Virus record (IMG/VR): IMGVR_UViG_3300027336_000040
Coordinates: 1 to 55,831 of that record
Strand: one strand, 5' to 3'
Source: a virus
DNA: 55,831 nt
The notes beneath the pieces were generated by a model. The model did no database searches, had not been told where the DNA came from, and worked only from the letters and a program-made list of their open reading frames with translations. The translations under genes and the position numbers were made by a program. Positions 1 to 55,831 of the stretch are shown one piece after another; the first letter of the stretch is position 1, and each line of letters begins with the position of its first letter.

Positions 1-1401
1 TCACCACGTCTTCCGTTTGTGGTCCAGGCTACACCGACGACCATCAACGGCGTAAGCGTGCCTGCTGGCGTCTACATCGACACCGCATTTATTCGTGACG
101 GCACGATCACGACGGCGAAGATCGGCAATGCCGCCATCGACAACGCCAAGATCGCCATCGGCCTCGATGCCACCAAGATCACGACCGGCTTCTTGGACGC
201 GGACCGGATTGAGTCGGAGAGCATCACCGCAGACAAGATCGACGCCAGAAACCTGACCATCAAGGACTCTCTGGGTAACGTCATTCTTTCCTCCGGGACG
301 CCACTCAGCTCTGCTTACATTGCCGCCGGTCAAGGCAAGAACCTCTTGTTCAATGGCTCCTTTAAGGATAGCGCAATAGGCTCCTACCTTGGCGCCAACA
401 CAACAGGTGGCCCGGTCATCCTTGGCCGAAATCTCAGCCCCGACTACACGCTGGCCGGAGAGGGCACGGCCTACATGTTCAGAGCCGGTGCATTGGCGGC
501 GGGAACCCAGTTTCAGGTCGCATTCAATGGCGGAATCTCCAACATTCCCGTGCTGCCGGGTCAGCGCGTTGAGGGCTACGCCCTGCTGAATACTCACCGA
601 TGCACCGGAGAGGTCTTGATCGCTTTCTACAAAGCCGACGGGACTCTTTTGGGATCGAACGCTGGCAACTCCGTCTCCTACCAGAGCACTGTCCAGTCGC
701 TTTCCAACCTAAGGATGTCTCTCGTCTTTGGGGTAGCGCCGCCGCTCGCGGCATCTTGCATCCTGATTATTCGGGCCACAGCAACAGGCGCAAACGACCC
801 GTACTTGTTCTTCTCTCGATGCTTCCTTGGGATTGCGGGCGCAGCGCAAACCGAGGCCTCCCCCTGGAGTGACGGTGGTGGCATCAAGCAGATCACGCCG
901 ATAAATGCGTCGACGTTCATTGCAGAAGCCTCCATTGGCAATGCTCAAATCGACGAACTGAGCGCAAACAAGATCACCTCGGGCTACATAAACGCATCCC
1001 GGATCAACACCGACACAATCACTGCGGGAATGATTGTGTCAAGGTCGGCTACTTCGTTTGAGATGATCATTAGGTACACGCCGAATGGCGTTTGGTCCTA
1101 CGTCGATTTCTACATGGACCACGTCGGAATTGCCTCAGTCATCCTTGCTGCCGCTTGGAATGCCACCGGAAACGCAAACACCTACACGTTCAATATCGGG
1201 CTGACAGATGGCAGTGCGACTTCGCCTCCCTACCAGCAGCCAGCCACCGCGACGCTAAACCAGCTCATACCAAATCCGCCGGTGCTGATGATTTCAAGGT
1301 ATCTGAGTGCAGGCTGGAATCGAGCTTGGGTCTTTGCCCAGATTTCAATCGCGACATCAGATCACTACGCGCAGTTTGCAATCTTCAAGAGCTACAGATG
1401 A
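1..1401 (+). CDS. Tail-tip (J-like) protein, C-terminal fragment
   Basis: Open from the first base in frame 1 (467 codons to the stop), so the start lies outside the window. The segment begins with the FVVQATPTTINGVSVPAG type of sequence, followed by imperfect repeats around TTAKIGNAAIDNAKI, repeated near residues 310-340. This is the usual C-terminal architecture of phage tail-tip/host-specificity proteins with DUF1983-type regions. The C-terminal ~120 residues are beta-rich and may contact the receptor. It is almost certainly the missing end of the gene that starts at 53623 and runs off the right edge. It sits at the virion tip and is followed at once by a fibre-assembly chaperone (ATGA overlap). 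Confidence 0.85.
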   Translation, partial: SPRLPFVVQATPTTINGVSVPAGVYIDTAFIRDGTITTAKIGNAAIDNAKIAIGLDATKITTGFLDADRIESESITADKIDARNLTIKDSLGNVILSSGTPLSSAYIAAGQGKNLLFNGSFKDSAIGSYLGANTTGGPVILGRNLSPDYTLAGEGTAYMFRAGALAAGTQFQVAFNGGISNIPVLPGQRVEGYALLNTHRCTGEVLIAFYKADGTLLGSNAGNSVSYQSTVQSLSNLRMSLVFGVAPPLAASCILIIRATATGANDPYLFFSRCFLGIAGAAQTEASPWSDGGGIKQITPINASTFIAEASIGNAQIDELSANKITSGYINASRINTDTITAGMIVSRSATSFEMIIRYTPNGVWSYVDFYMDHVGIASVILAAAWNATGNANTYTFNIGLTDGSATSPPYQQPATATLNQLIPNPPVLMISRYLSAGWNRAWVFAQISIATSDHYAQFAIFKSYR

Positions 1402-1784
1402 GCACGATCTACTACTTTGATGATGACGGCGTCTGCATTCTTTTGGCAGAAACGAGTGATGTCACCACGGCAGAGGACAGGGCGACCCGAATGGGCGCGG
1501 CGTCGTACCTGTGGAGTGACCAGAGCATTCACATCAGCAAGGCAAGAAACATTAACGGAGAGCTGGTGGAGGTTGATCCGGTCGTCAGCGCCGATGTCGC
1601 ATGGGCTCGCGTCCGCGAGAAGCGAAACATAGCTCTACTGTCTTGCGACTGGACCTTACTGCCGGATTCTCCGCTGAGCGAAGAGTCGAGGACAGAGTGG
1701 ATCGCCTACAGACAAGCCCTGCGTGACATCACCTTGCAGACCGACCCTTTCACTCTGGTCTGGCCAGCGCCACCCACCACCTAG
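1398..1784 (+). CDS. Tail fibre assembly chaperone-like protein
   Basis: 128 residues; the ATG overlaps the preceding tail-tip stop by four bases (ATGA), giving translational coupling. The C-terminal half carries the signature seen in Phage_tail_APC proteins: a helix with AWARVREKRN, then LLSCDWTLLPDSPL and WIAYRQALRDI, ending in a proline-rich WPAPP tail. This family assists folding or assembly of tail fibre or tip proteins. The N-terminal half (YYFDDDGVCILLAE) is a short beta segment usual in such proteins. Position directly after the tip protein fits that role. Family assignment is from pattern recognition only. Confidence 0.75.
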   Translation: MSTIYYFDDDGVCILLAETSDVTTAEDRATRMGAASYLWSDQSIHISKARNINGELVEVDPVVSADVAWARVREKRNIALLSCDWTLLPDSPLSEESRTEWIAYRQALRDITLQTDPFTLVWPAPPTT

Positions 1785-1820
1785 AATTAACGCAACTTAG
1801 GCGGCAAGCCACACATCACC

Positions 1821-3351: not shown

Positions 3352-3353
3352 TC

Positions 3354-4499: not shown

Positions 4500-4523
4500 G
4501 AGGTTTGCTGTATAGGAAGTGCC

Positions 4524-7500: not shown

Positions 7501-10500
7501 AGCGAGTTGATGAGCGCAGGCGCTTCGGCGACTTCGTGAACCGCGACGGCCAGGTCGTGCGCAACCCGAACGCAGTCCAGGTGGCACGCACTGACGAGAC
7601 CCCGGTCACCGATGACCAGGAGGGCATGTCGTTCGTTTCGGCCCCAAGCCAACCCAAGAAGAAGCCTGCTCCCGCGCCGGTAGAGGCACGCTCCGAGCCT
7701 CGTGAGCAGATGCGTCTGCCGTTCGGCCCCCGCCCCAACACCGACACTCCGGCGATGACCCGTCTGCGTAACCGCCTGGACGGCATCATCAAGAACGCCA
7801 GCAGCATCAAGTTCTTCCAGGACACCATCGTTGGCCTGGAGCAGCAGATCGCTGACATCGAGTCCAGGATCAAGTCCCTGGATCGCATCGAGGTGGACGG
7901 CAAGGTCTTCCGCGCCAGAAACGAGGAAGACGAGATGCCCGGCCTGTGGGGCATCTACGACATGAATGCCTACGATCGGTTCGCCGACGGCTTCATCGCT
8001 GACAAGCCCACCACAAAGCAGGAGCTGCTGGCTGCACGCCGCGCCCTGTCCGAGGAGCTGACCAAGGTGCGCGAGACCTCAATCGCCGCCAAGGCTGCGC
8101 TGTTCCGCCGCTCGATCAGCCGCATGGCTGACCAGATGATGAACGCCACGCGCTCGGCCATCAACGGCGGCATGCCCGAGGCTGACGCACGCAAGGTCTT
8201 CAACGACTACTATCAGGCGCTCTCGTTCCGAGAGACCAAGGCGCAGGACCTGGCTGAGGCCATGCCTGACCTGCCTGCCGCCGACGCTCAGTCCGACATG
8301 TTCGACGGCCTGCGTGTGGCGATGGGCTTCGTGGCTGACTTCCGCAACAAGCAGTCCACCGCCAGCGAGCTCAACGGCTACCTCGAGCAAGGCCTGCGTG
8401 ACGGCGACTTCAGCTACCAGGATGTGGTCGATGCCTTCCGCTCCTTCAAGCTGGACATTCCTCGCGGCGTCATGGACGTCAGCAGTCAGCTCGCCATTCG
8501 CAAGACGCTGGATGCTCACCTCAAGGAAGCTGGTCACTCGACCGCATCCCGTATGGAGTGGCTGGTCAGCATGGACAAAGTGCTGTCCGTCAAACCTGGG
8601 GCAAGGAGCGACTTCACCGCCGAAGAGCTGGCGCTGCATGACAACGTGTTCGCCAAGCGTGGTGAGCTGCGTTCCCGTCGCGCCGTCACAGAGCAGACCG
8701 TCGCCGCCAACGATCCTGATGACGCTTTCCCGAACCTGCTGTTCAACAACTACACGCTGGCCGAGGCGACCAACGACAAGACGCTGAACAAGTGGCTTCA
8801 GGGCAATGCCCGTGAGGCCTGGTTCCAGGACGTGGCGTTCGCCCTGCGCAGCCGCCCTGACCTGGCTGGCCAGGTGCTCAACAGCCTGGGTGATGACCGC
8901 GCACCTTTCGATGCTTGGGTGCAGCAGAAGAAGGACGCCATCGCCAAAGAGGCGACGATCCTAGCCAAGGCCCCGGCCTTCGCCGAGCTGCGCAACATGG
9001 ACTATGCGCAGACGATCCTGACCTCTCAGCCCGTCACGGCAAGCGACATCAATGCTGGCGCAGAAGATACCCGCCCAGATGATCTGGAGCGGCTCTACGC
9101 CACGGTCGCCAACTCCGAGCTCAACGACCTTCCATCCGTGCTTGATGCCGTCGCCAAGGTGCGCTCAATGCTCATGGCCGGAATCGACATGGAGACCGGC
9201 GAGATCTTCCAGAGCCAGTCGGCTGCCGAAGCTGCTGCCGCCGAATACATCGACAGCGTCTACATGAACGCCATGATGGTCGAGCCGCCGCGCTCAAACA
9301 TCGGCGCTCGATTCGAGGGTGACATCGGGTTTGGCATGACTGTCGAGCAGGCTGGCGAGCGCGACATCGGTCTGCCTCAGCAAACCTTCGACACAGACGA
9401 ATCCCTGAGCGACCTGATCTCCGCTGGTCTGGTGTCTGAAACCGACGTCGAGGGCCTGCTCGGTGAGCAGCAAGCCACCGACGAGGAGGCTGACGTCGAG
9501 GCCGAGAACGCTGGCGAGCAGACTGACATCGCCGCAGAGCGCGCTGATCGCAGCCCCCGTCCAGTGAACGTCCCGACCTCACTGGTCGGCACTGACCAGT
9601 ACCGCTTCCGCAAGGGCTTCTTCAACGGCAACTTGGTACCGGCCGTGGTGTCCGAGCACCTGAACAAGATCGCCTCCCGCTGGGCTGGCGCTCCCAACAT
9701 GGTGATCGTGCCCAACGTGCAGAGCCTGCCCGAAGAGCTGCGCGAGAAGGTCATGGCCAAGCTTGGCAGCAACATGTTCGCCAAGGGCCTGTACTACAAC
9801 GGCGACGTCTACGTCTTCACCGACCACGCCGAATCCCTGGCTGATGCCGAGTTCACCCTGTTCCATGAGGTGCAGGGTCACTTCGGTATGCGTGCCTTCC
9901 TCGGCGCTGACTTCGATGCGTACCTGGACCGCCTGTACAAGACCAACCCAGACATCCGTCGTGCTGCCGATCAGCGCATGGCCGAAGACCCGATGGGTCC
10001 GCTCGAGGCCGTGGACGAGGTCCTGTCCGACATGCAGGTCGATGGCGGCAACCAGGGGATGTTCCAAGCCTACGTCGGCAAGGTGATCGCTGGCCTGCGC
10101 AAGATCGGCATGGAGCGCGTGGCCAACTGGATCGCCAGCCAGGGCAACTTCGAGGTGGCCTACCTGCTGCGCGGCGCAAAGGATGCTGTCCGCCGTGGTG
10201 ACCGTCCGTCCATCGGCGCACCTGATGACATGCGTCTGGCAGCAACACGCACCCCATACGAGCTGTTCTCCGCCAAGGACGGCAAGACCGTTGCGTACGC
10301 CCGCTACAACCCAGTGCTCGACCGTTGGTCGATCTTCACCGCCAACGGCCAGGACATTCGCAAAGGGTTCAACACCGCCATCGAAGCTGACTTCGAGAAG
10401 GTGGTCACGACCATGCGCAAGATGGGCCGCGTTGAGCGCCGTCTGCGTTCCGGTGTGTACGTGGACAACAAGATCCCGTCCGACCTGGCCAAGATTCCAG

Positions 10501-13914: not shown

Positions 13915-15006
13915 TCACGCCACCGCCTCGAGGAAGGGTTTGGCCAACCCCATTCCAAGATTCGGCTGCGCGGCACCCGCAACCAGCATCTGCTCGATCA
14001 CGAACGCATGCTGCGCCAGGTGCGACACGTTCAGATGGGCGTACCGCTGCACCATCTCCACCGACTTCCACCCACCCAGCTCCTGCAACCGATCCAGGCT
14101 CACCCCGGACTGACGCAGCCACGACGCCCAGGTGTGCCGCAGGTCATGCCAGCGCAAATCCTCGAGCTTCGCTTCGGTGAGCGCCTTCTTCCACATTCCA
14201 GGCGGGATGTCGCTGATCAAGCCACCATCGGGCCGAGGAAAGACGAGCTCGCGGTGCTTGCCCATCTGCCCCTTCACCACCGCCTGCGCGGTCGGTGACA
14301 GCGGGATGGCGAACGGCAGGCCGTTCTTCATCACTTGCTGCGGGAACGTCGCCACCGTGAGACCGCCCTGCACCGAGAGGTTGCCCCAGCGCAGACCGAA
14401 CACGTTGGCGCGGCGCAGACCCGTGGTCACCGCAAACCTCGACGCCGAACCGTAAGGCTCGGGCAAGGCTGCGGCCAGCCGCTCGTACTCGGGAGGGGTC
14501 AAGAACCTCATGCGCCAGTCGCCCTCTTCCAGCAGGACAAACTTCGGTGACTGAGGAATCCAGAGCCACTCCCTTGCCGCCGCCAACATCACCGAGCGCA
14601 AGAACGCAATGTGCCGGTTGACGGTGGCAGGCTGGACCACGCCGTCGCCCCGCAGCTTGGGGCGCCCTACCTCCTCGTCCCGGATGTCGGCGACCACATC
14701 GGGCGTCACCTCGTCCAGGTACTTCACGCCAGCCTCGGCGAACTCGCGCAACCAGAACGCGTGATACCGCTCGTCGTCCCGGATGCTGCGCTTGTGCGCG
14801 TGCTCGGCCAGCCACTTCTTTGCCGCCTCCTCCCAGGTGCGGCGCACTGCCTTCTTCAAGACTCGCTCACTCCAGGCCTCGTGCTTCAGCCTGTCGTGCA
14901 GCTCCTGGGCGGCTTGCTCATCCTCGGTCCTGCATGAGTTGCGGTACAGCTTCCCGCGCACAGAGAACGAGTACCACCACACTTTCCCACGGCGATGAAT
15001 CGACAT
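13915..15006 (-). CDS. int: Tyrosine recombinase integrase
   Basis: 363 residues from the ATG at 15006, chosen over an upstream in-frame ATG (15039) because GGAG stands 5 nt before it. The N-terminal arm-binding region (RRGKVWWYSFSVRGK) is followed by a SAM-like core-binding domain (~55-150) and the catalytic domain. Active-site residues are visible: R198 in TGLRRANV, a hairpin lysine near K227, H287-x-x-R290 in WHDLRH, W313 in LGGWKS and the nucleophile Y322 in QRYAHL. It catalyses integration and excision at the adjacent tRNA-Asn attP. It is the last gene of the leftward operon and may also have its own promoter. Confidence 0.95.
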   Translation of the reverse strand: MSIHRRGKVWWYSFSVRGKLYRNSCRTEDEQAAQELHDRLKHEAWSERVLKKAVRRTWEEAAKKWLAEHAHKRSIRDDERYHAFWLREFAEAGVKYLDEVTPDVVADIRDEEVGRPKLRGDGVVQPATVNRHIAFLRSVMLAAAREWLWIPQSPKFVLLEEGDWRMRFLTPPEYERLAAALPEPYGSASRFAVTTGLRRANVFGLRWGNLSVQGGLTVATFPQQVMKNGLPFAIPLSPTAQAVVKGQMGKHRELVFPRPDGGLISDIPPGMWKKALTEAKLEDLRWHDLRHTWASWLRQSGVSLDRLQELGGWKSVEMVQRYAHLNVSHLAQHAFVIEQMLVAGAAQPNLGMGLAKPFLEAVA

Positions 15007-15216
15007 GACTTCTCCGATCCGCCGAAGGCCGCGTTGCAAGAATACAACGGCCTGCGGATTCCTGTAAAGCTGTGTGTTGCTGTGGGTGGCTTGGCGAGAA
15101 AAAGGTGGGGGTACTCACGTCCTGCCGGTCGACTGGAGGGGTGGCCACTTAGCTCCTAGTTACGACGGAGCTCCCTCACTTGACCGGTGCTAGCGTCGGA
15201 CGCTTTCCCCCCGTAG
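15007..15216. other. Intergenic leader upstream of int
   Basis: 210 bases with no convincing gene. Contains the putative int promoter and an inverted repeat AGCTCC...GGAGCT around 15150-15172 that could form a small hairpin. No tRNA or further att-like repeats were recognised. Confidence 0.4.
15039..15068 (-). promoter_or_regulatory. Putative integrase promoter
   Basis: On the - strand TTTACA (15068-15063) and TATTCT (15044-15039) are separated by 18 bp, a fair sigma-70 pair 33 nt before the int start. Prediction only. Confidence 0.45.
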
Positions 15217-25994: not shown

Positions 25995-26984
25995 TTAGTT
26001 GATGAGGCTGGGGGCGATGGAGTCGGAAGCGAACAAGTCGGCGATCCACTCGGCTGCGGTCTCGGGGAAGTCCTCGACCAGGTCCTCGACGTCATCGACG
26101 TCGTCGTACCAGTACGACAGCAGAGCTGCCGCCTTGTGCGGTGCGTCGAACACCCACTGCTCGACACCCTCTACGCCGCGACGCGACCATTGGTTGTGTG
26201 CTGCGCGAACGTACGGGCTGATCTGTGATGCGGTGAACGTCTGCTTCGGCAGGCCCCTGTGCGAGGACTTGGTGTCCTTGCTATCCGGGATGTACGAACC
26301 CTTGGCCTCGGTCGTGCCGGTGCGCCAGGTGCTGTAGTAGTCCTCGTAGTCGTCGTCCTGGAAGCGGCTGCGGTATCCGCCGTAGCCTGAGTACATGTTG
26401 GTGTAGCCGCCGCCTTGCGTGCCGGTGAACTTGTGGTACGACCAGGCGTAGGTGTTGGACAGCCAGGCGTTCTGGTAGTTGACGCCAGCTTGCGCGTTGA
26501 TCACCACGACGGCTCCGTCTGCACGCACCAGTGCGAACTTGTTGCTGCGGCCGATGAGCTCGCCCACGAACTTCTGCCAGTCGACGTCGGTCAGCAGCTC
26601 GGGGTTGCCGATGAGCGCCGGACGGATGAAGTTCTGGATGAAGTGCCAGGTGTCGGACTTGGCTTTGTCTGCGGCGTTGCCGGTGGACAGGATGCCGTTG
26701 TGCGCCAGCCAGACGTCGTCCGTCACCTTGTAGGGATGGCAGTTGTCGAAGTCGATGTCGCCGTGCGTCTGCATGCGTGCGTGCCACACGCAGTTCTTGC
26801 CTTCGGCGTGCTTGCGGTAGAAGTCGACGAACTCCTGCGCGTTGGCGGGCAGGCACTTGAAGATGTGCATCTTGTCGCCGTCGGCATACATGACGCCCAG
26901 GCCGTCCTGGTTCTTGTTGTAGACGTCGGCGAGAAACTCATCGCTGAATGTGGATTGGGTGGTTTGTTGTACGAGAAGACACAT
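25995..26984 (-). CDS. Class II glutamine amidotransferase
   Basis: 329 residues. The start MCLLV leaves Cys2 as the N-terminal nucleophile after Met removal, the hallmark of Ntn-type GATase II. Further matches: VWHARMQTHGDI (67-77) and LAHNGIL (93-99), the substrate-binding and oxyanion-hole segments. The enzyme would release ammonia from glutamine. The C-terminal ~180 residues (Gly/Tyr-rich, then VEDLVEDFPETAAEWIADLF) are not typical and may bind its partner. It sits 28 nt after the amidoligase stop, strongly implying a joint reaction. Confidence 0.85.
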   Translation of the reverse strand: MCLLVQQTTQSTFSDEFLADVYNKNQDGLGVMYADGDKMHIFKCLPANAQEFVDFYRKHAEGKNCVWHARMQTHGDIDFDNCHPYKVTDDVWLAHNGILSTGNAADKAKSDTWHFIQNFIRPALIGNPELLTDVDWQKFVGELIGRSNKFALVRADGAVVVINAQAGVNYQNAWLSNTYAWSYHKFTGTQGGGYTNMYSGYGGYRSRFQDDDYEDYYSTWRTGTTEAKGSYIPDSKDTKSSHRGLPKQTFTASQISPYVRAAHNQWSRRGVEGVEQWVFDAPHKAAALLSYWYDDVDDVEDLVEDFPETAAEWIADLFASDSIAPSLIN

Positions 26985-27012
26985 GTTGATATTTCCTTGG
27001 TTGAATGTTTGA

Positions 27013-28350
27013 TCAGGCGGTTTCGAGACGGTTCTCGAGATACGGGACGAGCATGTCGGTGTCGCCGGACTCGTCGGAGCGGATGAACTCGAGAAACTTG
27101 TCGGCCTTGAGTTCGCGGATCGACGTGGTTGAGCGACCGCAGAACTCGACGAGAGCGTTCGAGAACTGGATCGCAGCCATGACCGATTCGTACTTGAGGC
27201 TGCCCTTGAAGATGCGGAACTCGATGGTCTTGCGCGGCGTGATGTTCACTGCCTCGTACCGGTCATCGGACTGTGCTGATCGGCCGATCTTCTTGCTCTT
27301 GATGCGGCAATAGCCCTCGGCGTACCGACGTGCGACAGCGCGGACCAGGTCCTCGTTGTCCGGGTCGTTGATGAACGACACGATCTTGGCGATCTGCAAC
27401 TTGGACAACCCATCCTTGCTGACGTGAACGTGCAGTCCGCATGTCGTGGTGTTGTGCGAGCGCAGGCTGCGGACGGCGTTCTTGTCCTTGAGCCAGGCCC
27501 AAAGATCACGGTGCTTGTCCAGGCCCATCGGCTGGCTGATGATCTCGAAGCCGTTGCTCAGAGAGCCGTCGTTCTCGAAGAACACCTTGGCTCCGAACTG
27601 CTCGTCGTTGATCAGCTTGTGTAGCGCCAGAGCCTTCTCGCCACGCTCGTTATCCCGCACCTCCACCTCGAGCTCGACGCCGAGGTAGCGCTTCTTCATC
27701 TTGGTCCAGTCGCTGATCTGCGGACGCTGCGATCCCTTGCTGCTGTGGTAGTTGCCGATGACACGAGCTGACGGGCTGTAGTCGACGTGGTGGTACTCGT
27801 CGTCGTCGTCGTCGAACTGGAAGTCGTCGTCGTCCTCGTGGATCACGCAGCGGTTGCCGTATTGGTCGAGCGCGTCGCGTGAGCTGTCCGAGTAGACGTA
27901 CATGTCGTAGTAATCGGACCAGCGGTAGCTGTCGTCGATGCAGCTGCGGCAGATCTGCGCGTCCTCGTTGTTGTAGTAGGACCGCACCTCACGCACCAGC
28001 TCCCACTCACCGCAGTCATCGCAGCGGGTGATGATGTCCCTGTCTTTCAGGAGGTCGATGCAATCGTCTGAGTCGTCGGCGCTGTCGTACCGGCTGATCC
28101 AGTCGCTGAAGTCGCCGACTTCCCAGGCGGAGTAGCGATCAAGCCAGAGCTTGAGGTGCAGCATCATGCAGCCCTCTTCCTCCCCCATGATGGTGAGAAC
28201 AATGGACTTGATGCCGACGAACTTGCAGATGTCGAAGAGCTGGTCGACGTCACCTCCTTCGAGTGCTCGCTTGGCAACTTGATGTGCGAACTTTGACTTG
28301 GCCGTGTAGGTTTGTGTGGCCAGGCGTTCAAGGTATGGATAGTTCTTCAT
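27013..28350 (-). CDS. Amidoligase-like enzyme with zinc ribbon
   Basis: 445 residues from ATG 28350; GGAAGG precedes it. Residues 110-137 carry a CDDC...CRSC zinc ribbon; a very acidic stretch (171-185) follows. From ~220 the GS-like amidoligase fold (Pfam Amidoligase_2 type) is seen: GVELEVE (224-230), ENDGSL (259-264), GFEIISQP (267-274), CGLHVHVS (304-311), RYEAVNI (364-370) and TIEFRIFKG (375-383). These strands supply Glu/His ligands for ATP-Mg. Relatives paired with GATase II have been predicted by comparative genomics to amidate or ligate peptides or cell-wall components. The substrate is unknown. A terminator stands 22 nt before the start. Confidence 0.85.
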   Translation of the reverse strand: MKNYPYLERLATQTYTAKSKFAHQVAKRALEGGDVDQLFDICKFVGIKSIVLTIMGEEEGCMMLHLKLWLDRYSAWEVGDFSDWISRYDSADDSDDCIDLLKDRDIITRCDDCGEWELVREVRSYYNNEDAQICRSCIDDSYRWSDYYDMYVYSDSSRDALDQYGNRCVIHEDDDDFQFDDDDDEYHHVDYSPSARVIGNYHSSKGSQRPQISDWTKMKKRYLGVELEVEVRDNERGEKALALHKLINDEQFGAKVFFENDGSLSNGFEIISQPMGLDKHRDLWAWLKDKNAVRSLRSHNTTTCGLHVHVSKDGLSKLQIAKIVSFINDPDNEDLVRAVARRYAEGYCRIKSKKIGRSAQSDDRYEAVNITPRKTIEFRIFKGSLKYESVMAAIQFSNALVEFCGRSTTSIRELKADKFLEFIRSDESGDTDMLVPYLENRLETA

Positions 28351-28370
28351 AAACCTTCCGTGTTTGGACA

Positions 28371-28395
28371 ATAAAAAACCCGCCGATTGGCGGGT
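28371..28395 (-). terminator. Terminator/attenuator just before amidoligase
   Basis: On the - strand CCCGCC-AATC-GGCGGG is followed by TTTTTTATT. The T run ends ~22 nt before the amidoligase ATG, leaving little room for a promoter between. Confidence 0.85.
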
Positions 28396-28438
28396 CACGA
28401 AATGTGCAAACAGTTCTACATACAAACAGCAAGAGGGG

Positions 28439-28463
28439 CTTCCCTCCTCCAACAGGAGGGAAG
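28439..28463. repeat. Dispersed hairpin, copy 3
   Basis: CTTCCCTCCT-CCAAC-AGGAGGGAAG, followed by ACA. 10-bp perfect stem and 5-nt loop, same design as 32694-32718 and 33165-33189. Lies between a gene stop and the terminator before the amidoligase. Confidence 0.7.
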
Positions 28464-28476
28464 ACACTCAGTTGAT

Positions 28477-34308: not shown

Positions 34309-34386
34309 CTGGGTGTAATGTCAGCCCGGTAGACGGCCGCCCTTGGAAGGCGGAGGCCGCAGGTTCAAATCCTGCCACCCAGACCA
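34309..34386 (+). tRNA. tRNA-Pro(TGG)
   Basis: Acceptor CTGGGTG/CACCCAG, anticodon stem CCGCC/GGCGG with loop CTTGGAA (anticodon TGG), T-arm GCAGG-TTCAAAT-CCTGC, discriminator A and encoded CCA. The D-arm (TGTC...GACG) appears one base longer than usual. Confidence 0.85.
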
Positions 34387-34438
34387 ATTCAAACTCTTGG
34401 CGTAATACGACACCCTCGTCGTATTGAACCCCCTGCCT

Positions 34439-34525
34439 GGGGGTGCGGCGCAGATGGTGAGGCGCGGCGGACTGTAAACCCGTTGACCAAGAGTCGAGAA
34501 GGTTCAAATCCTTCCACCCCCACCA
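34439..34525 (+). tRNA. tRNA-Tyr(GTA)
   Basis: Acceptor GGGGGTG/CACCCCC, loop CTGTAAA (anticodon GTA), long variable arm as in bacterial tRNA-Tyr, T-arm GAAGG-TTCAAAT-CCTTC, A and CCA encoded. The anticodon stem has an A-C mismatch next to the loop. Confidence 0.85.
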
Positions 34526-34545
34526 CCATCAACCCCCGACGATTT

Positions 34546-34620
34546 TCCGAGGTAGCACAGCGGTAGTGCAGTTGGCTGTTAACCAATTGGTCGCTGGTTC
34601 GATCCCAGCCCTCGGAGCCA
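34546..34620 (+). tRNA. tRNA-Asn(GTT)
   Basis: Acceptor TCCGAGG/CCTCGGA, loop CTGTTAA (anticodon GTT), encoded GCCA end. It differs in sequence from the tRNA-Asn fragment at attP. Confidence 0.9.
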
Positions 34621-34625
34621 GACGT

Positions 34626-34699
34626 ATCTCGCTCGTCCAATGGCAGGACGTCGGTCTCCAAAACCGAAGATGGGGGTTCGAGTCCCTCGCGGGGTGCCA
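34626..34699 (+). tRNA. tRNA-Trp(CCA)
   Basis: Acceptor ATCTCGC/GCGGGGT with two T-G pairs, D-arm GTCC/GGAC, anticodon stem TCGGT/ACCGA with loop CTCCAAA (CCA), T-arm present, G and CCA encoded. Confidence 0.85.
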
Positions 34700-34700
34700 A

Positions 34701-34776
34701 GCCCTTGTAGCTCAGTTGGCAGAGCAGCCGCCTTGTAAGCGGAAGGTCGTGGGTTCAATTCCTACCAGGGGCACCA
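34701..34776 (+). tRNA. tRNA-Thr(TGT)
   Basis: Acceptor GCCCTTG/CAGGGGC, D-arm GCTC/GAGC, loop CTTGTAA (TGT), T-arm GTGGG-TTCAATT-CCTAC, A and CCA encoded. One base after tRNA-Trp. Confidence 0.9.
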
Positions 34777-34781
34777 GACGC

Positions 34782-34867
34782 GGAGCCTGGCGTGCAGGGC
34801 ACAAACGGGGTTTGAACCCCCGGCCACTTGGCGACAGGTGAGGGTTCGATTCCTTCAGGCTCCGCCA
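34782..34867 (+). tRNA. tRNA-Ser(TGA), atypical D-arm
   Basis: Acceptor GGAGCCT/AGGCTCC, anticodon stem CGGGG/CCCCG with loop TTTGAAC (TGA), long variable arm (CACTT...AGGTG), T-arm GAGGG-TTCGATT-CCTTC, G and CCA encoded. The D-arm GTGC-AGG-GCAC lacks the usual GG loop, so function could be impaired. Confidence 0.75.
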
Positions 34868-34919: not shown

Positions 34920-35162
34920 ATGGCAGCGAGAATGCGCAAGACACATCAAGAGGATGTGCGAAAGAAAATCCAGGTCAGCCTGCTGATCAATCGACTCACC
35001 GATTGCGCCATGGGCAAGACCGACCTAAGCACGCAGCAGGTCCAGGCGATCAAGGTCCTCATGGACAAGAGCCTGCCCAACCTGTCCGACGTGAAGATCG
35101 AGACCGGCTCACAGGGCATCACGTTCAACCTGAACACAGGCGTCAAGCCTAAGGCTGAATGA
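34920..35162 (+). CDS. Putative small terminase subunit
   Basis: 80 residues with GAGG upstream, overlapping the large terminase start by ATGA. Helical N-terminus (RKTHQEDVRKKIQVSLLINRLTDCAMGKTDLSTQQVQAIKVLMDKSLPNLSDVKIETG) is a pattern seen in short phage small-terminase-like proteins. It would recognise the packaging site and help load TerL. Assignment rests on position and this pattern. Confidence 0.7.
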   Translation: MAARMRKTHQEDVRKKIQVSLLINRLTDCAMGKTDLSTQQVQAIKVLMDKSLPNLSDVKIETGSQGITFNLNTGVKPKAE

Positions 35163-36616
35163 GCGAGGCGGTAGCAAATGCAGAAGAGGCGGTCACCTAC
35201 TATCCGCCTGGCCCTGTCGCTTCCGAATTTCATCAGGACTCCAGCTTCGTTCGAGGTCTCATGGGGCCTGTTGGTAGCGGCAAGTCATCTGCCTGCTGCT
35301 CTGAAATCGTCATGCGTGCTCTTGCCCAGCGACCCTGGCTTGACGGTGTACGTCGGTCCAGATGGGCAGTCATACGAAACACGTACCCCGAACTGAAGTC
35401 CACGACCATCAAGACGTGGCAGACCTGGTTCCCGCAGAACGTGGCGCCCATCCGCTGGGACACGCCCATCACCAGCTTCATGCGCATCGACGACATCGGC
35501 GACGGCACTTCGATGGAGCTCGAGGTCATCTTCCTGGCGCTCGACTCCGAGCTCGACACCGGCAAGCTGCGATCCCTTGAGTTGAGCGGAGCCTGGATCA
35601 ACGAGGGCTCAGAGATTCCCAAGGCGGTCTTCGACATGTGTACCCAGCGTGTCGGCCGCTACCCCTCCAAACTCAAGGGCGGTCCCTCCTGGTGCGGCGT
35701 CATCATCGACACCAACCCGCCAGACGACGACCACTGGTACTACCAGATCGCCGAGGTCGATACACCCAAGGGCTGGCAGTTCTTCCGCCAACCAGGTGGC
35801 CTGTACTTCGATCACGGCGAAGAGGACTACAAGCCCAACCCCGACGCCGAGAACGTGGACAACCTGCCCAACGGGCACGGCTACTACCTCCAGCAGCTCG
35901 GCGGCAAACAAGACACCTGGATCAACGTCTTCCTGCTGGGCAACTACGGCACGACCTCAGACGGCAAGCCTGTCTTCCCCGAATGGAACGACCGGATTCA
36001 CGTCAGCGATAAAGAGCTCGAGCCGGTGCGTGGCCTGCCCATCATCTTGGGCTGGGACTTCGGGCTTACCCCGGCGTGCATCATCGCCCAGCAGATGCCC
36101 AACGGCAGGCTGCACATCCTCGAAGAGATCATCAGCGAGGACATGGGTATCCGGGAGTTCGCCTCAGACGTGGTGCGCCCGATCCTCACCAACCGCTACA
36201 ACGGCTTTGCCCGGTTCAGCGACGGCGACCCCGCTGGTGCGATCCGCGCCCAGACAGACACTCGCACTTGCTTCATGGAATTGAACGAGTGCGGCATACC
36301 CACCGAACCCGCCGATACCAACGACTGGATACCCCGGCGAGAATCGGTGGCGTACTTCCTCACGCGGATGATCGACGGAGGACCAGCTCTGCTGCTGGAC
36401 CCGAGATGCACGACTCTGCGCAAAGGATTCAATGGTCGCTACCGGTATGAGCGGATGAAGACATCCGGCTCGGCACGATACAGGGACCGCCCCGTGAAGG
36501 ATGCTTTCTCGCACCCTCACGACGCTCTTCAGTATTTGTGCATGCGGGTGCGCAACGGCCTTCGTCCCATCCGGGCACGCCAGGTCGTCAACGCATCCAA
36601 TAGGGGCTGGACATGA
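35159..36616 (+). CDS. terL: Large terminase subunit
   Basis: 485 residues. Walker A GPVGSGKS at 36-43; Walker B/Glu region SGAWINEGSEI; C-terminal RNase H-like nuclease with GWDFGLTP and DGDPAG, and a late acidic motif DAFSHPHDALQYL. It cuts concatemeric DNA and pumps it into the prohead via the portal encoded next. ATGA overlap with the portal gene. Confidence 0.95.
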   Translation: MSEAVANAEEAVTYYPPGPVASEFHQDSSFVRGLMGPVGSGKSSACCSEIVMRALAQRPWLDGVRRSRWAVIRNTYPELKSTTIKTWQTWFPQNVAPIRWDTPITSFMRIDDIGDGTSMELEVIFLALDSELDTGKLRSLELSGAWINEGSEIPKAVFDMCTQRVGRYPSKLKGGPSWCGVIIDTNPPDDDHWYYQIAEVDTPKGWQFFRQPGGLYFDHGEEDYKPNPDAENVDNLPNGHGYYLQQLGGKQDTWINVFLLGNYGTTSDGKPVFPEWNDRIHVSDKELEPVRGLPIILGWDFGLTPACIIAQQMPNGRLHILEEIISEDMGIREFASDVVRPILTNRYNGFARFSDGDPAGAIRAQTDTRTCFMELNECGIPTEPADTNDWIPRRESVAYFLTRMIDGGPALLLDPRCTTLRKGFNGRYRYERMKTSGSARYRDRPVKDAFSHPHDALQYLCMRVRNGLRPIRARQVVNASNRGWT

Positions 36617-45486: not shown

Positions 45487-46466
45487 TGCCAGTCTTGTAC
45501 GCAAACAATGCAGCCTCGAGGCTCTCCGCCTCGATCACGAACACCGCCACCAGCTTTTCGGTGACCTCGGGCACTGGCGCATTGTTCCCGGCCATCTCTG
45601 GCGGCGACGTGTTCTACGCCACGCTAATGGACTCGGCTGGCAACCTCGAGGTCGTGCGGGTCACCGCTCGAGCCACCGACACATTCACCGTCGTTCGTGG
45701 GCAAGACGGCACCACGGGTCGCGCATTCTCCGTAAACGACATCGTTGAGATTCGGATCACGAGGGCGATGCTTAATGACCTGAAGGCCGAGCGACTTGCG
45801 CTGACTGGCGGCACGCTGACCGGCACATTAAACGGGGTCACCAGCGGCAGCACCACCACCGCAGCTTTTAATGCGGCAACCACAGGAGGTGGTTTTTCCG
45901 CGATGTGGGGCCGCTACGCGCCATTCAGAGCAACGGTAAACCATACGGGAAGTTCGTACGGGCCGGGGTTCTCGATGTACTACGAGTACACAGGCGGATA
46001 CGCAGGTCAGTACAGCCTCGGGCATTTAACTACCAGTGCCGCGAATCCGGGCAACTTCTGCATTCACCACATCAACAGCGCTGGGGCGTCCTTGGCCCTT
46101 TGGCAGTTTGATGGGGCGAACGGAAACTTTATTGCCCAAGGCAACGTCACCGCGTACTCGGATGAACGCCTGAAGAAAGATTGGGCCGCGCTGCCCGCTG
46201 ATTTTGTCGAGCGCCTAGCCGCCGTCAAGAGCGGCATCTACATTCGCGTCGACACCAACGAGCGCCAGGCAGGCGCGTCAGCCCAGGACTGGCAGAAGCT
46301 TCTTCCTGAAGTCGTCATGACTGGATCTGATTCCGACAAAACCCTGTCGCTGGCTTACGGTAATGCGGCCCTGGTTTCTGCAATCGAGCTGGCCAAAAAC
46401 AATCTTGAGCTTCGTGCGCGCATCGAGCGTCTTGAGCTGCTGATTGAGAAGTTGCTGGAGAAATAA
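45486..46466 (+). CDS. Tail fibre with peptidase S74 chaperone
   Basis: 326 residues; the start overlaps the previous stop region. N-terminal half is beta-rich with RLALTGGTLTGTLNG, a usual fibre-neck motif. From ~225 an intramolecular chaperone of the S74 family appears: YSDERLKKDW, with the Ser225/Lys230 dyad five residues apart, then helices to a coiled end (ARIERLELLIEKLLEK). The chaperone trimerises the fibre and then cuts itself off. Probable receptor-binding fibre. Confidence 0.88.
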   Translation: MPVLYANNAASRLSASITNTATSFSVTSGTGALFPAISGGDVFYATLMDSAGNLEVVRVTARATDTFTVVRGQDGTTGRAFSVNDIVEIRITRAMLNDLKAERLALTGGTLTGTLNGVTSGSTTTAAFNAATTGGGFSAMWGRYAPFRATVNHTGSSYGPGFSMYYEYTGGYAGQYSLGHLTTSAANPGNFCIHHINSAGASLALWQFDGANGNFIAQGNVTAYSDERLKKDWAALPADFVERLAAVKSGIYIRVDTNERQAGASAQDWQKLLPEVVMTGSDSDKTLSLAYGNAALVSAIELAKNNLELRARIERLELLIEKLLEK

Positions 46467-46883
46467 GTGCCAGCTCTTCAGTCATCCGGCGCGATCTCAC
46501 TTAACAACATAAAAACCCTGTTTGGTGGGGTAGCCAGCCCGTCGCTTGGGGACTATTACCGCAACAGCTCTTACATTCGAAGTTACTCCCAGAACTCAAC
46601 TCATTGGCTGTCTACAGACAGCGGCTATTTTGAGTTGTACTGGGGCGGGGCGAACATTGTTCCTCAATCGTCCGGCTGGTCACCGACCATGACCTCATAC
46701 ACAACGGGCGGTTACACGTATTTCAAGGGTGATGTTGCTGCTAACGATAGTGGATACGGCGGCTCAGGTTATGTGTGGAACTACGTGTATCGCGTTTTGA
46801 CAACCCTGGTTTCAGCCAACGGAGTCATACCCACCAGCGGCCCCATTTCAATGCGCAACTTCTACGGAGCAGAAAAACCATGA
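46467..46883 (+). CDS. Fibre-cassette protein (138 aa)
   Basis: GTG start one base after the S74 fibre stop. Motifs SLNNIKTLFGGV...LGDYYRNS and C-terminal ISMRNFYGAEK are recurrent in phage virion proteins accompanying fibres; the middle is Gly/Tyr/Ser-rich beta (YGGSGYVWNYVYRVLTTLV). May be an adhesin or a fibre tip protein. Confidence 0.65.
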   Translation: MPALQSSGAISLNNIKTLFGGVASPSLGDYYRNSSYIRSYSQNSTHWLSTDSGYFELYWGGANIVPQSSGWSPTMTSYTTGGYTYFKGDVAANDSGYGGSGYVWNYVYRVLTTLVSANGVIPTSGPISMRNFYGAEKP

Positions 46884-47242
46884 ATGGAATCGAGCACAAG
46901 TTTTACATTGAGCGCCTTTACGTGCGTCAGTACGAGGGCACGCCCAATTCGATTGCTCGAGTGCATTGGGTGTGCGTGCTCAAGCGCAACGGCGCCAAGG
47001 TGTTTGCGCGGGGTCAAACTGACCTGGCTGCCCCGAACCCATCGACATTCATCAACATTGCTGAGCTAGAGGCTCAACAGGTTTTGGATTGGGTTGCAGC
47101 TCATGAAGGCGGTCAGCCTTGGGTCGATGGTCTGGTTGCAGTCCACGAACAAGCAATGCAGCAAGCCGAACAGAACCTGCTGTTTGAGGCTTGGCACATG
47201 CCTTTGATCAACCCTGTTCGTTTTGACCCCAAAGATGTTTGA
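46880..47242 (+). CDS. Fibre-cassette protein (120 aa), unknown
   Basis: Start at MNGIEHKFYIERLYVRQYEGTPNSIARVHWVCVLKRNG (46880), ATGA overlap. Alpha/beta with a helix AELEAQQVLDWVAAHEGGQPWVDGLVAVHEQAM. Resembles small proteins placed with fibre genes; may assist assembly. Confidence 0.6.
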   Translation: MNGIEHKFYIERLYVRQYEGTPNSIARVHWVCVLKRNGAKVFARGQTDLAAPNPSTFINIAELEAQQVLDWVAAHEGGQPWVDGLVAVHEQAMQQAEQNLLFEAWHMPLINPVRFDPKDV

Positions 47243-47822
47243 GTACGCCAAGCCAATAATTGATCTGACCAGCATCCCGGAAACCTGGGATGACGTTCGG
47301 GAATTTGCTCATTGGTGGTGCGGCGTTGGCATGCCGTTTCTCCCGCCAGATGGAGCGGAGATTTTCCTGTCTGATGATGCAACCTCGATGTGCGTTTTCA
47401 GGAGAGGGAGATTTCAAGTTGAGCTGTATTTGATTCACCCGAATCCAAACTTGCAGGCTCACGAGCACCCTGGCGTTGAAGTCATCAAGATGCGGATCGA
47501 GGGAACGTACTCTCCACGGACAGGCCCATTTGAATCTTCACCTACTTGGGGAAGGTTGTCTGAAACCTTGCTGGACGGCCAGGCTCATGGGAGCACTGGG
47601 TCACAGTATTCTCGACAGCTTGGATTTCCTCTGGTTGCGTTCCAGCAATGGAAGCACAGAGAGCCCTGCACCGTTGCTGCCGCTTGGAAGGGGCCGACTG
47701 TTGGCCCCATGCAGGAGAACTTGATTCGGAGGTTCTATCCCAACGCCTTCATTGAGCGCGGGTACGCCGACATCACGAAGCCTTCCAACTACAGGCAGCT
47801 GGTCTTGGAGGGTAAGGCATGA
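47235..47822 (+). CDS. Cupin-like protein (195 aa)
   Basis: Start taken at ATG 47235 (an in-frame TTG exists at 47223). A cupin first motif is visible: VELYLIHPNPNLQAHEHPGVEVIKMRIEG (HEH..E with H-x-H). C-terminal part contains WKHREPCTVAAAWKGPTVG, possibly the second motif. Metal-binding beta-barrel likely; enzymatic role unknown. Paired with another cupin gene. Confidence 0.6.
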   Translation: MFEYAKPIIDLTSIPETWDDVREFAHWWCGVGMPFLPPDGAEIFLSDDATSMCVFRRGRFQVELYLIHPNPNLQAHEHPGVEVIKMRIEGTYSPRTGPFESSPTWGRLSETLLDGQAHGSTGSQYSRQLGFPLVAFQQWKHREPCTVAAAWKGPTVGPMQENLIRRFYPNAFIERGYADITKPSNYRQLVLEGKA

Positions 47823-48235
47823 GCGCCCCGGAGATTGCCATTGGCTGCGTGGCCAACCTGTTCAGCCGCATGATGGTGTTTGAGAAGGTTGGAGACATTG
47901 AGGTTGGGCACGTTCACCAGTTTGATCACTTGACGCTGCTGGCCAAAGGCAAGCTCAAGGTAACGGTCAGCGGCCAGGTCTCGCTCTTCGCGGCGCCGCA
48001 CATGATCTACATCCATAAAGATCATGTTCATGAGCTTGAAGCGCTTGAAGACGGAACGGTTGCCTACTGCATTCACGCACTCCGCACGGCTGATCAGTCA
48101 GAGATTCTTGACCCAGCAATGATCCCGAACGGAGTAAACCCCGTAAGAGTTGCCGGGGCTGTGCGCGGCGACACCCTAAGCAACCCAAGCTCGCCGGGCC
48201 GTCGTATTGCCATCACGAGCCACGGTCATTCATGA
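47819..48235 (+). CDS. Cupin-domain protein (138 aa)
   Basis: ATGA overlap with the previous gene. First cupin motif GHVHQFDHLTLLAKGKLKVTVSG and second MIYIHKDHVHELEALEDGTVAYCIHALR are both clear, with three histidines for metal. Cupins in fibre cassettes are known from various phages; roles are uncertain (sugar or cofactor binding or fibre chemistry). Confidence 0.78.
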   Translation: MSAPEIAIGCVANLFSRMMVFEKVGDIEVGHVHQFDHLTLLAKGKLKVTVSGQVSLFAAPHMIYIHKDHVHELEALEDGTVAYCIHALRTADQSEILDPAMIPNGVNPVRVAGAVRGDTLSNPSSPGRRIAITSHGHS

Positions 48236-48247
48236 CCGCCACCTAAA

Positions 48248-48559
48248 ATGTTTCCAAATGGGGTTGTCAATGCCAGCAACATTTCATTCCAGCAACCGGT
48301 CCCCCTGAACACACCAAGAGCATTACCTATGGACGAGATTGATGTATCACACCGAGAAATCTACGACCGGCTTTTAGCCGTTGAGCATAAGGTCGACAAG
48401 ATTGACAGAGCAACCGAGAACGTCGTTGCAGCGTTTGGTGCTGCTCAAGGCGCATTCACCGTGCTCGAGTGGCTAGGCAGGCTGGCAAAACCCATCCTAT
48501 GGGTTGGAGGCGCCATCACTGCCATTGGCATTACTTGGCAGAACTTCCGTGTGAAGTAA
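48248..48559 (+). CDS. Single-TM lysis-region protein (XhlA-like)
   Basis: 103 residues; start may instead be ATG 48329 (MDEIDVSHREI). The region DEIDVSHREIYDRLLAVEHKVDKIDRATENVVAAFGAAQGAFTVLEWLGRLAKPILWVGGAITAIGITW has a coiled coil followed by one transmembrane helix, as in XhlA/holin-associated proteins. First gene of the lysis cassette. Confidence 0.6.
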   Translation: MFPNGVVNASNISFQQPVPLNTPRALPMDEIDVSHREIYDRLLAVEHKVDKIDRATENVVAAFGAAQGAFTVLEWLGRLAKPILWVGGAITAIGITWQNFRVK

Positions 48560-51159: not shown

Positions 51160-52782
51160 ATGCCGACCGCAGTCATTAGCGCCTTCGACGGCCTTAATCC
51201 CTCAACCGACCCGGTCTTGCTCGACCAGGGTGCGGCCCAGACGGCAAACAACGTAAAGCTACTTAGCGGTGCGCTTGCGCCTCTCAACGGCACAACCGCT
51301 CTCAAGGCGCTGACCAAGTCAGCTCCCAAGACGATCTACCGGTACGGCAACTCCAGTGTCGAGACCGAGCACTGGCTCGAGTTCCTGAACCGCACAGACG
51401 TCATGCGCTCCCCTATCACCAACAACCAGTACGGGATGCTGTACTGGTCTGATGGCGTCCAGCCCAAGTACGCTCCAGGCGAACTAATCCTGTCCGGCAG
51501 CAGCTACCCAGGTGCCAGCTACAACCTGGGCATCCCTGCCCCCATTAGCAAGCCCACGGTTGGCGGCACCATCCCTAACGAGGCGGCAAAGTCCGTGACG
51601 CTCACGGCCGTCTACACCTACGTCTCGGCTTACGGCGAGGAGGGGCCGCCGTCGCCCGCCGCCAGCGTTGGAACGATTGACCCGAAGGATGACATCACCA
51701 TCTCTACGATGTCTGTCGCACCGAGCGGTCCGTACAACATCGTCACTAAGCGCATTTACCTCTCGTCGACCGTTGGCTCGAACGCTGAGTTCCAGTTCTG
51801 GAGGGAGGTCCCGGTGGCCACCGTCAGCCAGACCGGCGAATACGACCAGAGTCTGCTGGGTGAGCTGCTTCCGTCCACCGACTGGGTCGCCCCGCCCGCC
51901 GGTCTGCGAGGCCTAAAGATGATGGCCAACGGGATCGCGGTCGGCTTCGTGGAGAACACGGCGTACGCCTCCGAGCCGAACCTTCCTCACGCCTGGCCGC
52001 ACCAGTACACGTCCGACTATCCGATCGTCGGCGTCGGCACATTCGGTCAGTCTGCGGCGTTTCTGACCAACTCCTTCCCGTACATCCTGTCTGGCGTAGA
52101 CCCGGCAGCGATGAGCTTCGAGAAGCTATCCCTGCCACAGGCTTGCGTGTCTGTGGATTCGATCGTCGAGACTGGAAACGCGGTCTACTACGCATCACCG
52201 GACGGCCTAGTGGTCATCAGCTCCTCCGGCATCGACATCGTCACCAAGGGCTTGCTTACCCCTGATCAATGGCGCTCGTACAACCCATCGAGCATCAAGG
52301 CCGTCAGCCACGAGAACAGGTACTTCGCCACCTACCAGATGCTCGACGGAACGCGAGGCGTGCTGATCTTCGACTTCAGCGGCGCTGGGGCCAAGTTCAC
52401 CACCTCGAGCATTAACAGCGCTTCCGCCATCACGGCGATGCACTACGACTCCAGGGCAGACACCCTGTACCTGGCGCAAGGCACAAACATCGTCAGGTAC
52501 GACAGGGGCTCGGTGCTCAGTTACACCTGGCGATCTAAGGTCTTCCGCTTCGGCCACCCATTGAACCTGGGCTTCGGCCAGGTCGTTGCCTCGTCATACC
52601 CAGTGACAATGCGTGTGTACGCAGACGGCCAACTTAGGGTGACCAAGACCGTCACAGACAACAACCTCTTTCGCCTTCCCTCTGGCTTCAGGGCGACTGA
52701 CTGGGAGCTCGAGCTGGTTGGCAGCTCGAAGATCACGCAGACGATGCTCACCACATCGACCGCCGAAGCTAAAGTCAATTAA
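51160..52782 (+). CDS. Tail structural (nozzle-like) protein (540 aa)
   Basis: Beta-rich throughout. The start (AFDGLNPSTDPVLLDQGAAQTANNVKLLSGALAPLNG) matches the N-terminal pattern of podovirus tail-nozzle-like proteins. Repeated propeller-like strands include VYTYVSAYGEEGPPSPAA, FWREVPVA, YYASPDGLVVISSSG and HENRYFATYQMLDGTRGVLIFDF. Probably extends the tail channel. Name is by analogy. Confidence 0.7.
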   Translation: MPTAVISAFDGLNPSTDPVLLDQGAAQTANNVKLLSGALAPLNGTTALKALTKSAPKTIYRYGNSSVETEHWLEFLNRTDVMRSPITNNQYGMLYWSDGVQPKYAPGELILSGSSYPGASYNLGIPAPISKPTVGGTIPNEAAKSVTLTAVYTYVSAYGEEGPPSPAASVGTIDPKDDITISTMSVAPSGPYNIVTKRIYLSSTVGSNAEFQFWREVPVATVSQTGEYDQSLLGELLPSTDWVAPPAGLRGLKMMANGIAVGFVENTAYASEPNLPHAWPHQYTSDYPIVGVGTFGQSAAFLTNSFPYILSGVDPAAMSFEKLSLPQACVSVDSIVETGNAVYYASPDGLVVISSSGIDIVTKGLLTPDQWRSYNPSSIKAVSHENRYFATYQMLDGTRGVLIFDFSGAGAKFTTSSINSASAITAMHYDSRADTLYLAQGTNIVRYDRGSVLSYTWRSKVFRFGHPLNLGFGQVVASSYPVTMRVYADGQLRVTKTVTDNNLFRLPSGFRATDWELELVGSSKITQTMLTTSTAEAKVN

Positions 52783-53622: not shown

Positions 53623-55831
53623 ATGAGCGAGACACGCGTACCGGCCATCCCGGCGGTTACGTCGTCAAACCTGACCGACGTAGCAAAGGCAATCAAGCAG
53701 GTCCTGGACGTCCGAGAGGGCGTCGTTGGGGACCCGCTTGATGCCAACGTCACTTTTCGCGACCTGGCTGATGCTGGTCTGGCCGAGATTCCGCAGATCC
53801 GCACGGGTGTTCGTAGGGTTTCACCAATCGTTCCTGTTGGCGTAGGCCCGGATGGTTATGACCCGGCGGCAGATCGTATCCCTCCGCCAGCTCCAGAGAA
53901 CTTCACGGCGACCGGCGCGTTTGCCACAGTCCTTCTTCAGTGGGATGCGCCGCAGTACCGGAACCACTCGTACACCGAGATCTGGAGATCATCCAGCAAC
54001 CTGCTGAGCCAGGCTGTCCTGATCGGCACTTCAGCGACCAGGTTCTACACAGACAGCCTCGGGACATCAGCGACCGCCTATTACTGGGGTCGTCATGTGA
54101 GCCTGGCGAACGTGTCCGGGGCGTACAGCTCACTGCTTGGCACTGCCGCAACAACAGCCACTGACCCAGCCCTTGTGCTTGCGAGCCTCACGGGCCAAAT
54201 CACAGAAAGTCAGCTCTACAACGATCTCGCCCAGCGGATCGACCTGATTGACGGCCCCTCAACGCTTGCTGGTAGCGTCGCCGCCAGGCTTGCGTCTGAG
54301 GCTCAAGCTCGAGCCACCGCGATTCAGGCCGAGGCCGACGCACGCACCGAAGCCATCGACCTTGAGGCGCAGGCCAGAGCAGACGCGATTCTCGATGAGG
54401 CCAACTCAAGGACGTCCGCCATCAGCACGGCGACCGGCTCGCTTCAAACGCAGATCGACCTGCTCTCTGCGGCGAGTGCTGGCGACGTCGGCGAGCTTAT
54501 CGCTACCGTCAAGGCTGAAGAGACATCCAGGGTGACTGCCGATCAGGCTTTCGCCAGGACAAGCGAAGCGCTCTTTGCGATCAACGCAAGCAACGCCGCA
54601 GCAATCAAAACGGAATCAACTGCTCGATCTACCGCAGACTCGGCGCAAGCATCATCGTTGAGTGTGCTGTACGTGACGACTGGTGACGCCAAGGCCGCAG
54701 TGGTAGCCGAATCCAAAGTGCGAGCCGCTGGGGACACGTCGACCGCATCTCAGCTCTCCGGCCTCTCAGCCATCTCGTCAGCGAACTCCGCTGGCATCGC
54801 CCTCGAGCGGCAGGTAAGCGCCTCCCAGTCCTCCGCCATCGCCGACCAGGCATCGGCTCTAACTGCAATTGCTGGAGGCTCCAGGGCGGCATTGCAGGTT
54901 GAGCAGCAAGCCAGGTCAGATGCGGATGCTGCATCTGCATCGCAGGCCGTCTCCCTCGCTGCCGCCTTATCTGACAGCCGCTCCTCACTCCAGGTGGAGC
55001 AAAGCGTCCGGTCTACGGCAGACCTCTCCCTGTCGACCCAGGTGACAACGATTGCTGCCTCATCAGGCGGCAACACGGCAGGCCTGCAAGTTGAGCAGAT
55101 TGCCAGGGCCAGCCAGGACTCTTCGATTGCGTCGCAGGTTTCCAGCTTCTCGGCGATCTCTGGGGCCAACTCGGCCGCCATCTCGATTGAGCAGCTGGTC
55201 AGAATCGACCGCGATCTTTCGCTGGCATCCCAGGTGTCCGGCTTCACGTCCGTCCTGGGCTCCACCGTCTCTTCTTTGCAGGTCGAGCAGCAGACCAGGT
55301 CCAGCCAGGACAGCGCACTCTCTTCCCAGATCACTCGCGCCCTAGCCAAGACAGACGAGGGTGCCGCTGCCCTTCTTGCCGAGCAGGTTGCGCGAGTCAC
55401 CGCCGACCAGGCGACGGCCAGCTTCTCGAGCTCGCTGGCATCCACGTTCGGTAACTCGAACTCGGCGCTGGTGGTGGAGCAGCTCACTAGGGCAAGCGCA
55501 GACTCAGCTTCTGCTGGCCTGGTGTCGAACCTGAACACCGCCGTTGGTGCCAGCGGTTCTGCTATCAAAACCGAGGAGCTGGCCCGCTCGAGTGCCTCAA
55601 GCGCCCTCAGCTCACAGCTCCTCAACCTTTCGGCCGCAACCGGCGCAAACTCAGCCGCCATTCGTTCCGAGATTCAGGCCAGGACTGACCAGGATGTTTC
55701 CGTATCGTCTGTGCTTCAGACGATTCAGGCATCCGCCGCAGGCAATACAGCCGCAATCCAGCAGGAGATCACAACTCGCGCCACAGAGACCGGCAGCCTG
55801 TTCGCCAAGTACGGCGTAAAGGTTGATGTCG
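53623..55831 (+). CDS. Tail-tip (J-like) protein, N-terminal part
   Basis: 736 codons open to the right edge. N-terminal ~80 residues are followed by an Fn3-like domain (PPPAPENFTATGAFATVLLQWDAPQYRNHSYTEIWRSSSN). From ~210 come many ~30-residue coiled-coil repeats of the form 'ALQVEQxARSxADxAxASQVSxLSAxxGxNSAAI'. The window ends in LFAKYGVKVDV, which normally precedes the FVVQATPTT segment found at base 1. It forms the host-contact tip of the tail. Confidence 0.88.
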   Translation, partial: MSETRVPAIPAVTSSNLTDVAKAIKQVLDVREGVVGDPLDANVTFRDLADAGLAEIPQIRTGVRRVSPIVPVGVGPDGYDPAADRIPPPAPENFTATGAFATVLLQWDAPQYRNHSYTEIWRSSSNLLSQAVLIGTSATRFYTDSLGTSATAYYWGRHVSLANVSGAYSSLLGTAATTATDPALVLASLTGQITESQLYNDLAQRIDLIDGPSTLAGSVAARLASEAQARATAIQAEADARTEAIDLEAQARADAILDEANSRTSAISTATGSLQTQIDLLSAASAGDVGELIATVKAEETSRVTADQAFARTSEALFAINASNAAAIKTESTARSTADSAQASSLSVLYVTTGDAKAAVVAESKVRAAGDTSTASQLSGLSAISSANSAGIALERQVSASQSSAIADQASALTAIAGGSRAALQVEQQARSDADAASASQAVSLAAALSDSRSSLQVEQSVRSTADLSLSTQVTTIAASSGGNTAGLQVEQIARASQDSSIASQVSSFSAISGANSAAISIEQLVRIDRDLSLASQVSGFTSVLGSTVSSLQVEQQTRSSQDSALSSQITRALAKTDEGAAALLAEQVARVTADQATASFSSSLASTFGNSNSALVVEQLTRASADSASAGLVSNLNTAVGASGSAIKTEELARSSASSALSSQLLNLSAATGANSAAIRSEIQARTDQDVSVSSVLQTIQASAAGNTAAIQQEITTRATETGSLFAKYGVKVDV

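Follow-up and report, generated by a model that had tools for sequence, protein, structure and literature searches.

Assemblers are known to break contigs at within-population variation and at shared regions, and the viral contig break points described with COBRA are those of circular genomes that stay unclosed at repeats, in shared regions or where there is local variation (PMC10914622). A gene split by the ends of a metagenomic phage contig is a routine property of such assemblies, and the value of the case described here is practical. The sequence analysed is the entire IMG/VR virus record IMGVR_UViG_3300027336_000040 (55,831 bp, not a slice of a longer record; hereafter the window), which is classed as linear in IMG/VR. 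It differs from the COBRA-described breaks in that it lacks an end overlap and has a short stretch lost: when its two ends were compared for overlap or terminal repeats, we found no exact overlap and no good approximate one, as is expected if a short stretch is missing. Among cultured phages, the betaproteobacterial Burkholderia phage BcepC6B encodes a homologous large terminase subunit (TerL, 42%) in a genome of 42 kb, and no phage record matches the virion block of the window at the DNA level. Judged from its sequence and that of its relatives, the window almost certainly represents the near-complete genome of a temperate metagenomic phage with a circular map, cut by the assembler inside the tail-tip gene with a loss of about 218 bp.

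The features around the two contig ends are the following:

51160..52782, plus strand: internal virion protein, encoded 5' of the tail-tip gene (phrog_511, 3.5e-142)
53623..55831, plus strand: N-terminal part of the split tail-tip gene, with a tail-fibre region, then long tandem repeats, then the first ~26 Phage_Tail_Tip positions; an open ORF cut by the contig end
55753..55831, plus strand: Phage_Tail_Tip (PF09327) domain start, truncated at the junction; placed through the alignment to the relative G001
1..1401, plus strand: C-terminal part of the same gene, with the end of Phage_Tail_Tip (profile positions 80-107 of 139) and a distal region; stop at 1399-1401, matches to PF09327 and tail PHROGs
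1398..1784, plus strand: tail fibre assembly protein gene, directly 3' of the tail-tip gene (phrog_4912, 1.6e-19, to the C-terminal 70 aa of the frame 1092-1781)

The last ORF of the window (53623-55830, 736 aa) is open at its 3' end and terminates in ...TGSLFAKYGVKVDV followed by one spare base (g), and in frame 0 the first ORF (1-1401, 466 aa) is already open at base 1, where it begins with SPRLPFVVQATPT, the other two frames at the window start containing 18 and 9 stops. This agrees with the preliminary description, in which the last ORF ended with one leftover base and the first started mid-protein. Given the spare base at the 3' end and a frame 0 open from base 1, any join requires 3n+2 bases. 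The N-terminal piece matches PHROG tail fibre families, and its long tandem repeats have a spacing of 192 nt. Within the same block of virion genes we also observe a GNAT acetyltransferase gene (1821-2228) that is missing in six nearer relatives, while a distant relative, G021, carries a GNAT acetyltransferase at the same place, at 49% identity.

A homologous full-length protein, the search for which had been proposed as a check, was found intact in the contig G001 (IMGVR_UViG_3300017917_000687, 58,163 bp), whose TerL is 95% identical to that of the window. With the first 135 aa of the first ORF as query, 50 loci were returned, among them L002 on this contig, in which a 71% match to the C-terminal 120 aa of the last ORF is followed, after 219 nt of codons, by the start of the homologue of the first ORF. 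The tail-tip gene of G001 is one uninterrupted ORF (6477-10361 including the stop, 1,294 aa) that holds both pieces, which bears out the earlier claim that both window ends lie in one tail-tip gene. All 736 aa of the last ORF align to its residues 1-735 (63% identity, one gap of a single residue), and the alignment of the first ORF begins at residue 809, with 64% identity over its first 113 aa; past these ~113 aa, the distal part of the G001 protein is unrelated to that of the window. At the nucleotide level, window base 55831 corresponds to G001 position 8682 and window base 1 to position 8901, with 218 nt in between (8683-8900). As 218 is 3x72+2, this is in line with the earlier statement that direct joining shifts the frame and that 3n+2 bases are missing. 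On a circle of 58 kb, two unrelated ends would fall within 218 bp of each other and in the correct order in about 0.4% of cases.

The correspondence extends over the rest of the two contigs. We found 22 aligned blocks, running from window 1/G001 8901 to window 45814/G001 56085 and resuming with window 48316-55831/G001 1169-8682. G001 itself ends within a Gly-rich fibre gene (IEYLVVAGGGGG ... on one side of the break, MLTGTTTVTVGSYTVTVGGGG on the other), and the window is uninterrupted at the corresponding place; by their alignment, the two contigs are reciprocal circular permutations, each reading across the end region of the other. The module at 45815-48315 differs between these nearest relatives, with the Gly-rich fibre gene in G001 and several small genes in the window.

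The junction also falls inside a recognisable domain. In G001, positions 1-69 of the PF09327 profile were matched in the segment L053:8595-9062 (residues 4-68), and the match was transferred to the window via a gapless nucleotide alignment. The C-terminal piece scores 25.5 bits against PF09327, above the curated cut-off of 22, and a full-length relative 37 bits. The N-terminal piece alone has no Pfam match, with just ~26 domain residues left in it, and aligns residue for residue to G001 where the PF09327 domain begins. As read from these profile matches, the junction very probably splits one PF09327 domain, with the profile start, as placed through G001, before the gap and positions 80-107 after it. 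Compared with the family, the domain is very probably present on either side of the junction and its middle is absent from the window, and an extra insert of ~35 aa precedes PF.VQ in G001 and probably also in the window.

This insert bears on the length of the missing stretch. The part of G001 that is absent from the window comprises 73 codons, the last of which belong to an insert with the motif VWLDTS...KYY...W. The distance from K-x-D to PF.V varies among relatives, with a short class of 48-52 residues (and one of 58), a long class of 83-87, and two longer forms of 93 and 121. The window start, SPRLPFVV, resembles the long-insert class (TTSPRLPFIV, TTPQALPFIV) and not the short one (IIPFIV), which makes ~218 bp the best estimate of what would have been lost between base 55831 and base 1, as a length that is read from G001 and varies among relatives; about 110 bp would be lost if the short class applied. 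The ~100 missing bases guessed in the preliminary description, close to the ~110 that short-class relatives would give, are probably too few when set against the 218 of the nearest relative.

Further relatives support the circular map. G012 (59,590 bp) is marked as a closed assembly by an exact repeat of 99 bp at its ends, and its circular gene order is the same as that of the window; it breaks beside or inside the giant LPD38 gene, which in the window (4524-13268) encodes a protein of 2,914 aa with the LPD38 domain near its C-terminus. The contigs G008, G009, G010 and G011 have the same gene order, too, with breaks at other places, and in total six relatives are contiguous over the junction region of the window and broken elsewhere. 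Together, the reciprocal bridging with G001, the closed G012 and these four contigs uphold the earlier proposal that the genome is nearly complete and its map circular. A map of this kind would be given alike by a circular form, by a headful-permuted virion and by a virion with direct terminal repeats. Against this reading, exact 22-mers from both window ends were found in no other IMG/VR contig, and no exact bridging contig of the same strain was found there. An independent assembly from another metagenome (G304) matches window 18124-49996 at 99.997% over 31,873 bp; another metagenome also yielded a contig near-identical to part of the window (L075, 99.7% over 3,566 bp), and further records carry identical terminase genes.

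The packaging and integration functions lie far from the contig ends:

13790-13834, no strand assigned: attP-like intact 3' part of a tRNA-Asn(GTT) gene, recognised from its sequence
13915-15039, minus strand: tyrosine integrase, adjoining the attP-like site (PF00589, 2.3e-27)
34920..36616, plus strand: small and large terminase subunits (TerL phrog_2, 4.1e-28, 95% identical in G001; putative TerS by position)

Measured along the circle, ~21 kb separate the terminase genes from the contig ends, and the ORF preceding TerL, the putative TerS, is conserved in relatives. Just upstream of the terminase genes, six tRNA genes (Pro, Tyr, Asn, Trp, Thr, Ser) are clustered at 34309-34867. Phage genes flank the attP-like site and the integrase on either side, an arrangement that fits the free form and not a prophage cut from a chromosome, and no close prophage copies were found in bacterial genomes (best TerL 49%). 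With an integrase beside an attP that matches the 3' end of a host tRNA, the phage is, by its predicted gene content, temperate. The exact attP-like 45-mer occurs in at least 120 bacterial genome stretches, and most of those listed are from Betaproteobacteria; this distribution suggests a betaproteobacterial host group, and the host of the phage is probably a betaproteobacterium. Elsewhere in the genome, an amidoligase-like gene adjoins a class-II glutamine amidotransferase gene (25995-28467, minus strand), a pair that is kept in G001, G012, G008, G009 and G010.

Under our preferred reading, the assembler would have cut the circle in the middle of the Phage_Tail_Tip domain, ~218 bp would have dropped out at the cut, between the last and the first base of the window, and the break itself may have come from strain variation or low coverage in a variable module. 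At the corresponding site in G001, we found neither an intragenomic repeat of the missing stretch nor an unusually stable DNA hairpin (z -0.65).

An addition to this reading, which does not exclude it, is that the tail-tip gene is a variable or recombining module in which polymorphism between co-occurring strains creates a recurring, non-random break point across the gene family. We regard this as possible, on balance somewhat doubtful. In its favour, a 6,475-bp contig with ~70% DNA identity (L060) ends 4 nt past the homologue of the window's last base, and another locus (L155) begins about 40 nt past the homologue of its first base. Both ends of the more distant G021 (IMGVR_UViG_3300020048_000165, 57,054 bp, TerL 33%; segments L337-L339) fall in the same tail-tip domain and overlap imperfectly, over 83 bp with 4 differences (95% identity), as if from two alleles, and G021 probably represents a full circle that carries two alleles where its ends meet. 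The wide differences in insert length among relatives, and the tendency of assemblers to break at variation and shared regions (PMC10914622), point the same way. However, the junction region was itself the query that turned up G021 and L155, and the window was chosen for its break, which makes this a biased set; L060 was found via a neighbouring virion gene, the internal virion protein gene having served as anchor for finding relatives. Among the ten contigs of at least 45 kb that were selected by TerL instead, the tail-tip gene is detectable in seven and uncut in all seven, and none breaks in it. The terminase-selected set gives no sign of a break hotspot such as L060, G021 and L155 hint at. 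That recombination or allelic variation preferentially affects the Phage_Tail_Tip module in these phages, so that genomes repeatedly fall open at one and the same point of the gene in metagenome assemblies, appears unlikely to us.

Far less probable is that the ends belong to two different tail genes, paralogues or modules, and that the genome is incomplete by more than a few hundred bases. Tail modules are mosaic, and the part after the gap does occur with other upstream parts, and also in G002 (L003), where it is shared at 84% DNA identity over 152 bp; the genome of G002 is otherwise unrelated to the window, and it was dropped as a map reference. Against two separate genes, G001 has exactly both parts in one ORF, in the same genomic place and with collinear flanking genes. 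We give the least weight of all, next to none, to natural linear virion ends (a cos site or another defined terminus) that happen to fall in the tail-tip gene. In their favour, both ends map to a single point, and L060 stops no more than 4 nt from the homologous position. Against them, 21 kb separate the terminase genes from the site, the six relatives read through the region and have their breaks at other places, the gene is uncut in 7/7 of the TerL-selected contigs in which it was detected, and a sharp physical terminus would not cost the contig ~218 bp of coding sequence.

Returning to a circularly mapping genome opened by the assembler, the contig ends of the window almost certainly have no biological meaning as genome ends, with an assembly break as the likely cause, and they should not be taken for virion ends. 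Reciprocal bridging by a permuted relative is a check that is transferable to other linear viral contigs. For this phage, a record filed as linear becomes a near-complete genome, about 99.6% of ~56.05 kb if the estimate of 218 bp is right, and the two genes at its ends become parts of a single tail-tip protein, some 1,275 aa long.
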